Below the pieces are notes generated by a model. That model made no database searches. It saw only the letters and a list, made by a program, of their open reading frames with translations, and was not told the origin of the DNA. From contig WELB01000049.1 in the NCBI GenBank assembly GCA_009602725.1, forward strand, positions 425,389-455,032: DNA of 29,644 nt. Direction: 5' to 3'. Source of the stretch: Spirogloea muscicola. Its lineage: Eukaryota > Streptophyta > Zygnematophyceae > Spirogloeales > Spirogloeaceae. A program made the position numbers and the translations under genes. Below are positions 1,435 through 15,801 of the stretch, in pieces; within the stretch, counting starts at the first letter, position 1, and each line of letters begins with the position of its first letter.

Positions 1435-2358
1435 CTGACTTCATCCTACTGTGGGCTGCTAAATCGAACATTGTGGGTGATGTTTGAATGCTCCAGTGCC
1501 AAAGACAAGTAAATACCGTGGATGTCATTATCCAGTAGGATGCCTAATTCACGCTGCATCAAGGATCAACTCTGTCCTTACTTATACCAGTGACACACTT
1601 TGGTCACTGGTAGCAAGCAACCTCTCACTTGCCAGGGTTATTAGTAAATAGGTGTAAGCAGATGTAAGTAGGGTGGTTTGGCGTACCTGTTTGACGTATC
1701 TGACATGGGTCGCAAACTGTATTGCGAAGCAGAAATGTCAGGCCAGCCTCTCACTCACATGCAGGTGCACATGTATGGAGATTGAATTTGTGGGCAAATT
1801 TCCTGCAATCTCCATGGACCCTCCCACAACCTCTAGTGGAGAACTCTGTCACTTGATTTGCAGTATTTCTGCAGTGTAACATAGGCTCCAGCGGCAAGCC
1901 CAGAACACATAGTTGCTCTCCACTGCAGCCATTGAGCATTTACTTGTGTCCGATGCAAGAATCCTTCATGTTGTACAACCATTTAACTGCTTCCAACATG
2001 CAAGGTTGAGTGAATGCAGAATTGATTTCCTGCTGGATCCCAGACTGCATGCATACGTAACACCTAACCTAATATATGCACTGCGAGAGAGGAGTATTCG
2101 GGCAGAAGGGTGGCAGCCACCAGACCACAGGCAGAGCAGTTGGCAGACAGAAACCTGCACTCTCGTGAAGGTGACCACACTGTACATGCGACACTACGAA
2201 AACCTTTTCGCTGGTCAAATCAGCAGCGTCTGCTTTTGTCCGCAGCAGTTTCCAAAATCAAACTTGGTATATCACGCAACCCTGACACGCTTCTGCGAAT
2301 CTGCATTTGGGACACTAGCGTCGGATGCAGGTAATGGCTCTGCGGCCATCGTCTCGAC
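1435..2358. other. Intergenic between convergent genes, no gene seen
   Basis: Apart from the small hairpin at 1585-1612 I see no coding exon, RNA gene or repeat module here. Open frames on both strands have no family resemblance and no usable splice signals linking them to the flanking genes. Confidence 0.6.
1585..1612. repeat. Perfect 10-bp hairpin in 3' flank
   Basis: TACCAGTGAC (1585-1594) and its exact reverse complement (1603-1612) flank an 8-base loop. It lies about 150 bases after the ankyrin stop, in what should be 3' untranslated or intergenic sequence. Confidence 0.7.
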
Positions 2359-5300
2359 CTAGCATGGGCACAGTAAGCCAAGTAAGTTGCTTGAGCTCGT
2401 AGGATCGAGATAAAGGGTCCATGGCAGTGTTTCAATCAATCTATTAGCTGCTCCATTTGAATAGTCGTCACCTTGCACAAAATGGCAAGGTGACGACAGC
2501 TGCATATGATGACAGTGACAACATGCATAGATGCAAGGACTCATCTACCACTGGCTGGTGACTCACCATCGTTTCACCAGGCACTACAGCATCACGATGA
2601 GGTAGAAGTCTCAAGCTAGGCCCTGCAGACGTTCATCATGCCATCAGCAAACTTCAGATAGCTCTCCTCAGGGTACTCCAATGAAACGATCAGAGCACTG
2701 GACCTTCACAGCAGCGCTTGCTGACCTGAACCATTTGACACTGGGCGCTCTATTTGTCGACAGGCCTGCCCATCCGTGCTCAGGGACTCAATACGCTTGG
2801 GTGTGCTTCTGCCAAAGACACATGAAGACAATGAGCACAGCACCTTGAGCACAACTGGAGAAGTCCTGCATGCGGAAGGCCTTGGCAAACCCTGCAAGCG
2901 GCAGGTAACCAAATCCACAAGTTGCTAGTACCTATCAAGGGCATCACCATGCCCAAGTTGACCACTGGTTCCTCTGCCCCAAGAGTACACATTCCCACGT
3001 TCCGTGCAAGCAATAGTGTGCCTCCATCCACAGGAAACAGAAGATACTCTCTGCAGATAGCAGATGGATCTGGGTATGTTGTGACAGGCAACAGCAGTGC
3101 TAGAGCACTATCATCACAAGATCTGTAATCCACTGCTTACATCTGCCAAAGTACTGCTTGCGAGACTGCTGCATGTGAGAAGGTGCACTTGGACTACCTG
3201 GTCTGCAAAGCTCGTGACAAGCTGTGGTAAATTATGATCATCCGTATTCCCAACTCCAACTTGGCCAAACTGCATTGGGCAAGTAAGTGTGTACAACCAG
3301 GATAAGTCTGGATCACTGCGCATGCACACAACAGGCCTCTGTGAAGCTAAGGCTTGAGATGCTGTACCTTGTTCCAGCCCCAAGCAAAGAGCTTTCCTTC
3401 TGAGTCTATGGCAACCGTGTGCCTCCAGCCCCCAGATATCTGCAGTGACTATGTCACTATGTGAGCAGAAATATCAAAAGAAGGGCTCCAGTTGCGCAGC
3501 TTGTGATCTTTGCAACAGGAAGAGGCACAGCGTGCAGACCAGGGGTGAATGACCAACTCCACCTTATTTTACCTTAGTGATCTTCTTGTCAGCCAATGCA
3601 GCCACGCGTGTAGGGACCAACTGATCTTCGAAGTCACCATGTCCTAGCTGGCCATACTTGCTCCACCCATATGTATATATTGCGCCTGATGAAGCTACAG
3701 CTATAGTGTGCCGCCAGCCGCATGCTACCATCTCCATTCTTTCCTCCTGCCAGAAGCTCACTTTTCACATTCTTAATAGTTACAGTATCAATGGGGACTT
3801 ACATGGAGACACAGACATAGCCTGCAGCTCCGAAACAACATCTCTACTGCAGACAAGAAAACAAGTAAATGGGTCTTACTTACTTGTACGCTCTGAACCT
3901 CTTCAGGCAGCAGTCGATCTCTCCTATCACCCAAGCCCAAGTTCCCATATCGACCCCATCCCCAACCATAAAGGCGACCATCCTCTGAGACTGCGACTGT
4001 GTGCTCAGCACCAGCGGACAGCATCTTCATTCTGACACCCTGTCATAGATACATGACAGAGCAGAGATTATCCAGAGGTCAAAATCAAGAGTGACCCTAC
4101 TTATGACCAATTATTCCAAACAAATTCATACGACAATAGCAGCTCACAAATCATATACGCGCGTTTGTCCTCAGGGCGTAAAACCAGCAGACACTATGGC
4201 CACCACTCACTGCTGTAAGCATAGCAGTATGGCTGGTCCTGCCAGACAATATGAACTCACATCAAAGCCTGGAAGCGTTCGTGGAACAAGGGAGTCTTCT
4301 GTGTCGCCAAGGCCAAGCTGCCCATTCTGATTGCGCCCCCATCTGCATGATTGCCAACAGTCATCAGCGTTGGAGACAAACACCCTGCAAATGAGCAAAG
4401 GAGTGGTCCTGCTGTCAAATTCTCACCCGTGCACTTCTCCATCACCAGTGATGGCCAAACAATGGCAGTCGCCACAAGCGATCTGCTTGATAGAAAGGCC
4501 ACCGAGGAGCTTGATTGGCTGAGGATAAAAGACATCCGTTGAATTGCCATGTCCTAATCGCCCAAAGTCCCCCCTGAAATATAAGTCAAGGCAAAGTATG
4601 CGTCAAGATAGTGACAGGAGGTGGCAGGGGGGGCTTTCTGTTCGTTACCAGACCATGCTGCTACTCCCTAACATTATAATTGGCCTATCACGCCTCTGGT
4701 ATGTGCACGCCAAGGTCCAGTGTGAAGGTGCTCCCGATATTGGATCCTCAGTGAAAAGCCATGCTCATGCTTTGCATGGCTTAGCAGGACCCTGCAGGCC
4801 TCCATATGCTTGGCTTGTCCATGAGCATTATAGACAAAGAGGCTGCCGAGAATGCAACTAGCTCTATATGCAGATTATTTGTCTGCTAGTTACTTGTCTG
4901 CTAGTTGCACCAAGAATGTATCTGTAATGCCACCCCCCTGCCGAGCTATTGACAGCACAGGTAATGCATACCACCCCCAGCTGTAGACGGTCCTTGTGTC
5001 TTGCGAGTAAGCAGTGGTGTGGTCGGCTCCACATGTGACTGAAGAGATGGCAGCTCCCTCCAAGCCAGCCACAATGGTCGGCAGGTGCCGCTCGTTTGCG
5101 TCCCCGTGACCAAGCTGTCCATCCTCTCCTCGACCCCAGGAGCACACGAGATCACCAGCTACACGAAGCAACAAACCGGGCCATGTGACCACCATCATAA
5201 TAAACTCACACACAAAGCTCTCACATGTATACATTGCCAAGGCTCATTTACTCCTTGAAAGGCCAATGCAAGAGCTCACATTACAGAGAGCCACGAGGTA

Positions 5301-5509
5301 TGTCGTACATTTAGGCAACACAAGTACGCTACAGGAAGAAAAGGCTGCTATCTTAAAAGCAGCGTGCAGAAGCCCCAGACCTAATTGAGGTGCTGGAGAA
5401 GACGGCACTCACTCAAAAGGGCAACGGAGTGGCTGGCTCCGGCCGAAAGGGCGAGCACCACTTGCGCGTCGGCCGAGGTCGCGTCCTCGGGCTTGCCATT
5501 ATCTCCCAT
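2359..5509 (-). CDS. UVR8: UVR8-type UV-B photoreceptor
   Basis: UVR8 is a seven-bladed beta-propeller that senses UV-B through tryptophans: the homodimer splits on illumination and the monomer binds COP1. Twelve exons were read, high to low: 5509-5413, 5158-4972, 4573-4427, 4342-4261, 4039-3884, 3746-3573, 3439-3368, 3269-3198, 3050-2932, 2808-2726, 2622-2567, 2499-2359. They sum to 1386 bases, 461 residues (Arabidopsis: 440). The N-terminus reads SAGASHSVALL. Three GWRHT motifs place W234, W286 and W338, each one above Arabidopsis W233, W285 and W337, with R287 and R339 beside them. D97 and D108 match the dimer salt-bridge residues D96 and D107. Exon 11 encodes HRDAVVPGETM with VP at 410-411, the COP1-binding position. 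The last exon (residues 416-461) resembles nothing I know; reading through the donor at 2566 would end at 2468 instead. Start chosen at the first ATG before the conserved N-terminus. Confidence 0.95.
2464..2497. repeat. Perfect 13-bp hairpin at UVR8 3' end
   Basis: GTCGTCACCTTGC (2464-2476) pairs exactly with 2485-2497 across an 8-base loop. It lies in the predicted last UVR8 exon, or in the 3' UTR if the gene ends earlier. In the read-through reading the stop codon (2468-2470) falls inside one arm. Confidence 0.85.
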
Positions 5510-6426
5510 GGTCAAGGCAACCTCCTTATGCACACCGGTGGAGGCTCCAGCTCAGAGAGCCTGCTGCAGCAGCCTCCTCAGCGGCAGAAAGGCCTCATCG
5601 TGACACCAACAACGGCAGGCCGGTGCCGTGCCGAGCCCCCTCATCCCGCGCCGGGCCACCGACGAGCTATCGCTGGACTGAGCGGCGGCCCGGCCTCCAG
5701 AGACGCCAGCCCTCCAAGGGCCGGCCTCTGCGAGACGCCCCTGCTGCAGCGCGTCCGCACGGCTAGAGCGCGACGCCAGCGCGCGGGCGGGCGGCCATTG
5801 GCGGCGGCGGCGACGGCGGCGGCGGCGGCAGCGGTGGCTGCAGAGGGGCCTCTGAGGTCACGGCTCGTCGCAAGGACCTGAGGGGGCAGACATGGCGTTG
5901 GACGGGCAAAGGCGGGGGGAAGACGCTTAGTGCCCGAAAAGCGAGCGGCCAGGAGGGAGGCGAGGGCAGGGAGGCAGGCGGGGGCGCGTGGGGCCCCTCC
6001 GCAATAGGGCCTTCGAAGAATCCGGCGTAGCGCCAGAACGGGGGGTGGGGGGCCCTCCTGCGGGGAGGTCGGAACGCCGGACCGCCGATCCGTCGGCTAA
6101 AACCTCCCCACGCTCGGGACAGCCGCTCGCCTGCTCGTCCCCTACTCCCAGCCGGTGGGCTTTTCGATCGGGCCGCAGGCAATTCTCTACGGATACGATT
6201 CACCGAACCACCCCCCCCCCCTCTCCCCCGCCCAGGACCCCGCGCCGAGCCCGCCGGCAGCCAATCACCGCGCCGCGCCGCCGGATAGCGCCGCGGCCGG
6301 GGCCCCCGCATGGCACACGTGCCGCGAGCGCCTTTTGCCACGCGTCGGAGGCTGGGGGCCTTCTGTTCGCGGAGCCAGTTTCAGCCATCAATTAAAGAAG
6401 AAGCAAGCGCGGCCAGATTAAGTGGT

Positions 6427-13668: not shown

Positions 13669-15801
13669 TGAATCCAGGCGTTGCCGTCATGGTGGCTATG
13701 AGACATCTCCTTTCTCACAGGCATTTGAGCCAACTGGCTGTTAGATGCATGGACAGTCATGCAAACTGGCGAGGTCTGACCTCATCTGCCACTGGACCTG
13801 CAGGTAAGCGTTAGCCTTGTGGTTGCTTCTATATTACCTGTGGTTAAGAGCTCAGCCTCGAAGCAGTCTCCTGCTCTTAGTGCATACTGTATATGATAGC
13901 CGTCCTCGTCTGTCAAAGTGTAGACCAAAACTGTGGCCCCTTCAGCATATCGTGGCTTCTACTTCAATCCATCTAAACTTTGAGCTCAGCATTCGTCATA
14001 CTTGACCTGCTGTACGCAGCAGCAGCTGGTCGTACAACAACTGTTTGGAGTTTTGGAGACAACAGCCAAGGTGCGCTAGGCCACTCAAGTGGATTACAAG
14101 ACTTTCAGTATGAACCTGAGACCGTGAGTGGCTTGCCTACGGATATTGTTTCAATTGCTGCTGGGCATTACCACTCATTGGCAGTCACATCATCTGGCCA
14201 GCTCTGGTCATGGGGCAGAAACCAGGAGGGCCAACTAGGGCCAACTAGGGAAGGCCTTGCGGAGCCACACCCTGTGCAAGGATTGGAAGGAGTGCATATA
14301 GTAGCAGCAGCCGCATCAGCAGTTGTGAGTATGGCTATCAGCAAGGATGGAGATTTGTGGTCTTGGGGGACGTCTAAGAGGGGTCAGCTTGGACTTGGAG
14401 AGTATGTCACAGAAACATCTGTACCCCAACAAATCGTGCCATTGAGAGGAGTTGCGCAGGTGCACTCTCTAAGTACGTACATCTCCACCTCGAATCAGCT
14501 TCTTTGTGGCCTTCTGCTAACGCTTGCACACATTTGCAACTTAAGCTGCCGCATAGTGGTGATTGTTTCCTGTAAGCGTGTACTTTGCTGTGATCAAGCA
14601 TGCATTCTCAGTTGTTGCACAATAGGGATGGGAAGCTTCTTGCAACATTCCTCCTGACTCAGCTGCCAACTCCTTCCTCCCAGGTTGCCCTCGGCTGGGG
14701 CCATGCGCTGGCATGCACAGTTGATGGTCAGCTTTACTGCTGGGGTTATGCTGACCAGGGGAGGCTTCCCCTATACTCTGACACGTTCAGAGCAGCTGCA
14801 AGAAAGTGCCGTGACAATGCTGACTCTGGCAATGATATCACATCCTTGAGGAAGGGAGAAGCTGATGCAGCATCTCACCATCTGGCTGCGGAAGTGGGCA
14901 TGGAGAAGCTGTACTGGACCCCTCAGCGCTCTGAGCTCTTCCTTGGTGTAGATGTGGCAACTGTTGCCTGTGGCATGGACCACTCCTTGATTCTGAGCGG
15001 TAAATACATCTGGTGGACATGATTCCTAATTTTCCTCCTCTGATCTTGTTCCTGATCTGTATTTGCTGTGCATGGCACATTCTCTTCCTGTGTTGCATGC
15101 TTAATACATCATGTATGCCAGACCTATCTACCATCACTGGGATTGCTGGTGTCCGGACAGGACTGAGTAACAGTGTCGTGTATCCTTGACTTGTCTCTCA
15201 TGTGTCTCCTTTTCTGTTACTTGCGACTTGCGACGTTTTATAATTGTCGATATTGACTTCTCATTCTCATGCAGAGGCTGGGGATCTGTACACCCTTGGC
15301 GATGACAGTCTTGGACAGCTTGGGAAGGGCAGACAAGTGCCAGCTTCAGATACAGTCCGTCCAGTTCCAGGTCTGCAGGTACTTCATGCAGCTGCAGGGC
15401 TTGGTCATTCTTTGGCAATAGCAAGGCAGGCTCCAACAGGCGGAGTCAAGTCATTCACAGGTCTTGCTTCCACGAAGACAGGCCAAAAGGTTTTGTCCTG
15501 GGGTTGGAACCAGGCCTTGCAGTTAGGCAGGAGTAGTGAACAGGCGGAGGACACCCCTGGCGAGATCGATGGCTTGGAAGGTGTCATAGTGAAAAGTATG
15601 AGTGGGGGTCGAGTGCATAGCTTGGCAGTGACTGACAGCAAAGAATTGTGGACCTGGGGCTCTGGTCATGGAGGTCGCTTGGGTCATGGGAGCTCCAGAG
15701 ACGAGCCTGCACCACTTCCAGTGGAAGCCTTGATGGAATATCAAGTGCTGGGTGGTGCCTGTGGTCTTGACCACACTTTGGTACTGACACAGCCCAAGTG
15801 A
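13668..15801 (+). CDS. Mitochondrial RCC1-repeat protein, RUG3-like
   Basis: Four exons, 13668-13803, 14020-14459, 14684-14999 and 15275-15801, give 472 residues with phases 1, 0 and 1. The first 45 residues (MRHLLSHRHLSQLAVR and following) are Arg/His/Ser-rich and lack acids apart from one Asp, like a mitochondrial presequence. The rest is a seven-blade RCC1 propeller: VWSFGDNSQGALGHSSG, GHYHSLAVTSSGQLWSWGRN, DLWSWGTSKRGQLGLGE, WGHALACTVDGQLYCWG, DLYTLGDDSLGQLGKG, VLSWGWNQALQLG and LWTWGSGHGGRLGHGSS. Arabidopsis RUG3 is a mitochondrial RCC1 protein needed for nad2 intron splicing; animal RCC1L is the counterpart. Which one this equals cannot be fixed by eye. A charged insert of about 50 residues (from about 14780 to 14920) separates two blades. 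The GWRHT motifs of UVR8 are absent, so it is not a UV-B receptor. A 10-bp tandem duplication lies at about 14230-14250, in frame as read. Confidence 0.85.

Follow-up and report, generated by a model that had tools for sequence, protein, structure and literature searches.

The gene on the minus strand of the analysed window (29,644 nucleotides of contig C49, from an assembly of 153 Mb in 471 contigs) almost certainly encodes the UV-B photoreceptor UVR8 and is one of three copies retained in the genome. The host is very probably a streptophyte alga, with Spirogloea muscicola, a zygnematophyte, as the most likely species. Sequence score, tree position, photochemical and salt-bridge residues, VP core and KRVR tail as well as purifying selection all agree with the identification as UVR8 that had been made in the initial annotation. 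That the protein works as a UV-B receptor in this alga is something we continue to infer from its sequence.

In the spliced model, the gene extends from position 5509 to position 2272 of the window and consists of 12 exons (Table 1). All introns are bounded by GT and AG and the exons are consistent in phase, yielding an open product of 443 amino acids. The twelve phase-consistent exons proposed in the initial annotation therefore stand, except for the last one. A gene end at 2359 had been claimed, but the true end is at 2272; exon 12 lies beyond the claimed end and is conserved in the three copies, so that the last exon of the earlier model must differ from the corrected one. The tail encoded by exon 12 was found by phmmer to align with Arabidopsis UVR8 (PDB 7vgg) through to its ...VKRVRI end. 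The trinucleotide TAG at 2361–2359 had been read as a stop codon; this reading was rejected, as its last two bases are the acceptor AG of intron 11.

Exon 11 shows a single base difference among the three copies, and the codon of W95 is split across the junction of exons 2 and 3. Exons 6, 7 and 8 (174, 72 and 72 nt) are each of phase 0 at both ends; skipping of exon 6 or exon 7 would hence drop a GWRHT motif and leave the frame intact. An upstream open reading frame of six codons (MRPFCR, 5578–5598, minus strand) precedes the start of the gene; its ATG is present in the copy on contig C48 and lost in the copy on contig C80.

Table 1 Features of the UVR8 gene, in positions of the window
Feature	Position	Strand	Content	Basis
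Exon 1	5413..5509	-	ATG at 5509; MGDNGKPEDATSADAQVVLALSAGASHSVALL	spliced model; kept in the C48 and C80 copies
Exon 2	4972..5158	-	W40, E44, D45, D78, W93	spliced model, residue alignment
Exon 3	4427..4573	-	D97, D108, D130	spliced model, residue alignment
Exon 4	4261..4342	-	W145, R147, E159	spliced model, residue alignment
Exon 5	3884..4039	-	E183, W197, W199, R201	spliced model, residue alignment
Exon 6	3573..3746	-	blade 5 GWRHT (W234, R235), W251, K253	motif search, spliced model, residue alignment
Exon 7	3368..3439	-	blade 6 GWRHT (W286, R287), W301, W303	motif search, spliced model, residue alignment
Exon 8	3198..3269	-	72 nt	spliced model
Exon 9	2932..3050	-	blade 7 GWRHT (W338, R339), W353, R355	motif search, spliced model, residue alignment
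Exon 10	2726..2808	-	last part of the propeller and beginning of the C-terminal tail	spliced model, residue alignment
Exon 11	2567..2622	-	C27/VP region HRDAVVPGETM; V410-P411; Asp at the Tyr407 anchor position	spliced model, residue alignment
Intron 11 AG acceptor	2359..2360	-	AG present in all three copies	
Exon 12	2272..2358	-	encodes VETMAAEPLPASDASVPNADSQKRVRVA, ends ...SQKRVRVA, stop TGA	spliced model

When compared with the PDB by phmmer, the spliced protein matched 11 distinct UVR8 chain sequences with 591.6–623 bits (E = 3.1e-186), the highest score being obtained for 7vgg. Proteins that have the RCC1-repeat propeller fold in common with UVR8 scored at most 255.5 bits (RPGR), with 229 bits for HERC1, up to 220 for HERC2, 152 for RCC2 and about 147 for RCC1. 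The E value, together with the recovery of the same gene from two other contigs, excludes a chance match. Identity to Arabidopsis UVR8 is 65% (280 of 432 aligned residues) and rises to 70% (256 of 368) in the propeller. Comparison with Pfam yielded RCC1-type propeller families only, including the Alsin RCC1-like domain below its cut-off.

Scores of single exons separate UVR8 from its paralogues poorly: the top non-UVR8 locus, the neighbouring RCC1 gene, reached 81.7 bits at 42% identity, as against 92.7 bits at 66% for a UVR8 exon. The spliced protein and a tree were used for this reason. The tree comprised 16 rows, namely Arabidopsis UVR8 as the sole UVR8 from outside the genome, the three copies and, from the same genome, 12 paralogue loci. 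A branch with a support of 100/99, recovered in 100% of 200 bootstrap trees, separates Arabidopsis UVR8 and the three copies from the remaining rows. The check suggested earlier, a tree of UVR8 against RCC1 paralogues, thus places the gene inside the UVR8 group, with one outside UVR8 defining that group. Thirteen paralogue loci had been selected from the RCC1 places in the genome, and L038 (193 aa) was excluded by the minimum length of 300 aa. Each paralogue row was roughly assembled by joining tblastn segments, L031 and L037 being near-copies; seven of the 13 inner branches are weak and a long-branch warning was issued, so only the UVR8 branch is used here.

A motif search of the window returned exactly three matches, the GWRHT codon sets of the initial annotation; they lie at 3719, 3430 and 3029 of the minus strand, in exons 6, 7 and 9. 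Residue alignment likewise bore out that their tryptophans (W234, W286 and W338) are offset by +1 from W233, W285 and W337 of Arabidopsis. These three and W95 (Arabidopsis W94) are present in all three copies, and so are 13 of the 14 Trp residues of Arabidopsis UVR8 overall, including the pyramid. In Arabidopsis numbering, the six residues of the dimer salt-bridge set (R286, R338, D96, D107, E43 and D44) are kept without exception in the three copies, as are D129, R234, R146 and R200. The roles of the conserved Trp and charged residues are those given in passages of PMC5108777 and PMC8748919. The C27 region contains the VP core (HRDAVVPGE, V410-P411).

Three positions are changed relative to Arabidopsis: E53 is replaced by Asn (Asn54), W400 in the C-terminal coil by Leu and Y407, the COP1 anchor, by Asp, the latter in all three copies. 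We take E53 to be a residue of the dimer interface. Hence, the claim that all interface residues are present holds for the Arg and Asp residues checked, but not for this position. W400 is taken to be the one Trp that PMC8748919, in its account of the protein, assigns to the C-terminal random coil.

Searched genome-wide, a degenerate DNA pattern for GWRHT that admits Ser as well at the Arg codon occurs at 61 places (26 + 35), compared to 38 for a reversed-pattern control. The three UVR8 loci account for nine of the 61, and nowhere else do three matches occur within 2 kb. The triplet can therefore be regarded as evidence for UVR8, which is not the case for a lone motif. Segments recovered from the 13 chosen RCC1 paralogue loci are devoid of GWRH; the corresponding motifs read GWSHT in L032 and GWWHT in L033. 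Among relatives sought outside the genome, nine pattern matches were obtained in other genome contigs, none of them confirmed, and viral contigs gave no match.

A second RCC1-repeat gene is located in the window at about 14028–15801 (plus strand), approximately 8.5 kb from UVR8. The segments recovered from it are without GWRH, and its top PDB match, obtained with a rough hand-read protein, is UVR8 with 187 bits. A similar RCC1 gene was also observed near the UVR8 copies on C48 and C80. Coding stretches with ankyrin-like repeats were seen by eye at 370–1220 of the window (plus strand). Positions 1–123 are a run of 123 T directly following N in the contig, probably the edge of an assembly gap.

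The proposed mechanism follows that of Arabidopsis UVR8. According to PMC8748919 and PMC5108777, UV-B excitation leads to charge separation from W233 to W285 and neutralisation of R286 or R338, upon which the salt bridges are lost; monomerisation is followed by binding of COP1, in which both the propeller and the VP core take part. The algal protein has the residues named for these steps. By analogy, two of its seven-bladed propellers would pair as a homodimer, with salt bridges across the interface linking R287 to D97/D108 and R339 to E44/D45. UV-B would excite the pyramid of W234, W286 and W338 together with W95 of the partner subunit, and charge transfer from W234 to W286 would neutralise an adjacent Arg and open the dimer. 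The freed monomer would then bind COP1 via the propeller and the VP motif of the tail, so that HY5-type factors would be spared from degradation. Expression, dimerisation, photochemistry, light response, COP1 binding and output of the algal UVR8 are all features that we infer from this analogy.

The two further copies in the assembly are located on C48 (5347–2114) and C80 (66072–62843). Each copy has 12 exons, 1332 coding bases including the stop codon, 443 residues and 11 of 11 introns with GT-AG boundaries. Since the coding lengths are equal, the differences in length between the copies lie in introns and flanks. Identity between copies is 96.0–97.8% in exons and 86.5–93.9% in introns (gaps left out), computed with provisional edges of exons 5, 11 and 12. 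The dN/dS values are 0.145 (C49–C48), 0.121 (C49–C80) and 0.072 (C48–C80). This range of 0.07–0.14 indicates purifying selection on all three copies and lends the intron-exon model, exons 11 and 12 included, support that does not depend on homologues.

It is possible, if rather unlikely, that haplotypes or duplicates in the assembly account for the three copies, instead of a genome triplication; this question bears on the origin of the copies and not on the identity of the gene. In line with such an origin, the copies are syntenic, each having an RCC1 gene like the second one of the window at a distance of 6.5–10 kb. However, introns differ by 6–13.5% and synonymous sites by 0.06–0.13, which is high for sequencing duplicates, and a 'triploid genome of Spirogloea' is mentioned in PMC11156808 and a genome triplication in PMC7994812. 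The copies may nonetheless be haplotypes of a triploid. Grouped by likeness of score and layout, RCC1 loci form at least five sets of three (for example C6/C21/C37, C15/C349/C432, C30/C58/C131, C20/C23/C34 and C50/C73/C113), and others occur once or twice. A single COP1 locus was seen, and two each of HY5-like, SPA-like and BES1 genes. Together, these numbers suggest uneven retention or assembly gaps.

With regard to signalling, the Asp at the Y407 position is the relevant change. Asp545 of CRY1 occupies position −3 of its VP motif. In PMC6745501, Tyr407 of Arabidopsis UVR8 is described as anchored in the core of the COP1 WD40 domain, with Tyr441 among its contacts; the UVR8 peptide no longer binds to COP1 Y441A, whereas its affinity for COP1 K422A is raised. 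The same paper names Tyr, Arg and Gln as anchors at positions −3/−2 of known VP peptides and proposes that CRY1 Asp545 may contact this COP1 pocket, a contact that K422A may abolish. The Asp anchor thus departs from Arabidopsis UVR8, but may have a precedent in cryptochrome.

One consequence could be that the algal UVR8 still senses UV-B, while the Asp anchor shifts its affinity or its choice of partners (COP1, RUP, SPA), making the output weaker or re-tuned compared to land plants. We consider this unlikely. The replacement of Y407 in every copy and the loss of peptide binding in COP1 Y441A argue for it, but the range of anchors accepted, the gain of affinity in K422A and the suggested contact of CRY1 Asp545 (all from PMC6745501) indicate that Asp may be tolerated, and all COP1 pocket residues checked are conserved in the alga. 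More speculative still is the idea that the CRY1-like acidic anchor (Asp at VP −3) in all three copies would cause competition for COP1 to differ in affinity or preference from that of land-plant UVR8, with the retained copies keeping receptor dosage high in a sun-exposed alga. Finally, redundancy among three copies could permit photoreception to be lost, leaving an RCC1 protein derived from UVR8 or an extra copy in decay. This is highly improbable given the unbroken frames and whole splice dinucleotides in the three copies, the dN/dS of 0.07–0.14 in all three pairs and the unchanged state of the photochemical residues checked.

Candidate partners of the UVR8 photoreceptor were found in the same genome. 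A COP1 WD40 domain on C73, the single COP1-like locus seen, shows 62–87% identity per stretch and keeps K422, Y441, R465, W467, H528 and F595. Matches to COP1 WD40 and HY5 were obtained with fragments of these proteins as queries. A motif scan for the COP1 RING domain in 7 kb around the WD40 exons gave no match; an intron could split the RING. SPA-like WD40 stretches (40–61% identity) are present on C142 and C58, and HY5-like bZIPs on C68 and C217 (68 and 70% identity), with an RRVPE motif about 370 bases upstream of the former. BES1_N was detected on C173 and C32; BES1 is placed at the base of the streptophyte algae in an excerpt of PMC13261680. PHY domains of phytochromes were detected on C16, C101, C175, C48, C72 and C146, and PMC4525182 traces canonical plant phytochromes to a common ancestor of streptophytes. 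Pairs of PHY domains about 13–16 kb apart were observed at C48:474124-489623, C72:224583-240966 and C146:71394-85574. They likely represent a phytochrome pair in triplicate, of which one is located on the UVR8-bearing contig C48. The phytochrome and BES1 genes, taken with the RCC1 loci in sets of three, point to a streptophyte alga and probably to S. muscicola (class Zygnematophyceae). A search for RbcL gave no match, so the assembly probably does not include the chloroplast.

With UVR8 of Arabidopsis thaliana (AT5G63860; PDB 4d9s, 4dnw, 7vgg), the algal protein shares the seven-blade propeller, the three GWRHT motifs, 13 of 14 Trp, the key salt-bridge residues, the VP core and the KRVR tail, and it aligns without gaps over residues 9–391 of 4d9s. 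It differs in the three exchanges given above (E53 to N, W400 to L and Y407 to D), and the part of the tail that lies between the VP motif and KRVR is divergent. In the zygnematophyte Serritaenia testaceovaginata, UVR8 is described as likewise 65% identical to the Arabidopsis protein and as having the pyramid Trp and the VP motif; in this alga, UV up-regulates COP1 and RUP (both from passages of PMC11156808). In the chlorophytes Chlamydomonas, Coccomyxa, Chlorella, Volvox and Monoraphidium, pyramid Trp and dimer residues are reported as conserved and blade 5 as carrying GWRHS (PMC5108777), whereas GWRHT is found in all three blades of the algal UVR8 described here. This agrees with a streptophyte host but is not enough on its own to exclude a chlorophyte, as Auxenochlorella is absent from the list of GWRHS species.

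A search of the UVR8 literature on Spirogloea and Zygnematophyceae yielded no title naming Spirogloea, and the excerpts of PMC11156808 and PMC7289718 hold no description of a Spirogloea UVR8. UVR8 in zygnematophytes, other green algae and land plants is already in print, as passages of PMC11156808 and PMC5108777 document. Judged by sequence, the gene looks like an ordinary, complete member of the UVR8 family, whose single testable oddity is the Asp in the anchor position of the VP motif. As algal UVR8 is in print, the gain is incremental, the corrected gene model now covering the COP1-docking tail. It adds a full UVR8 gene of the land-plant type, together with candidate partner genes, in a probable member of the zygnematophytes, the class nearest to land plants.
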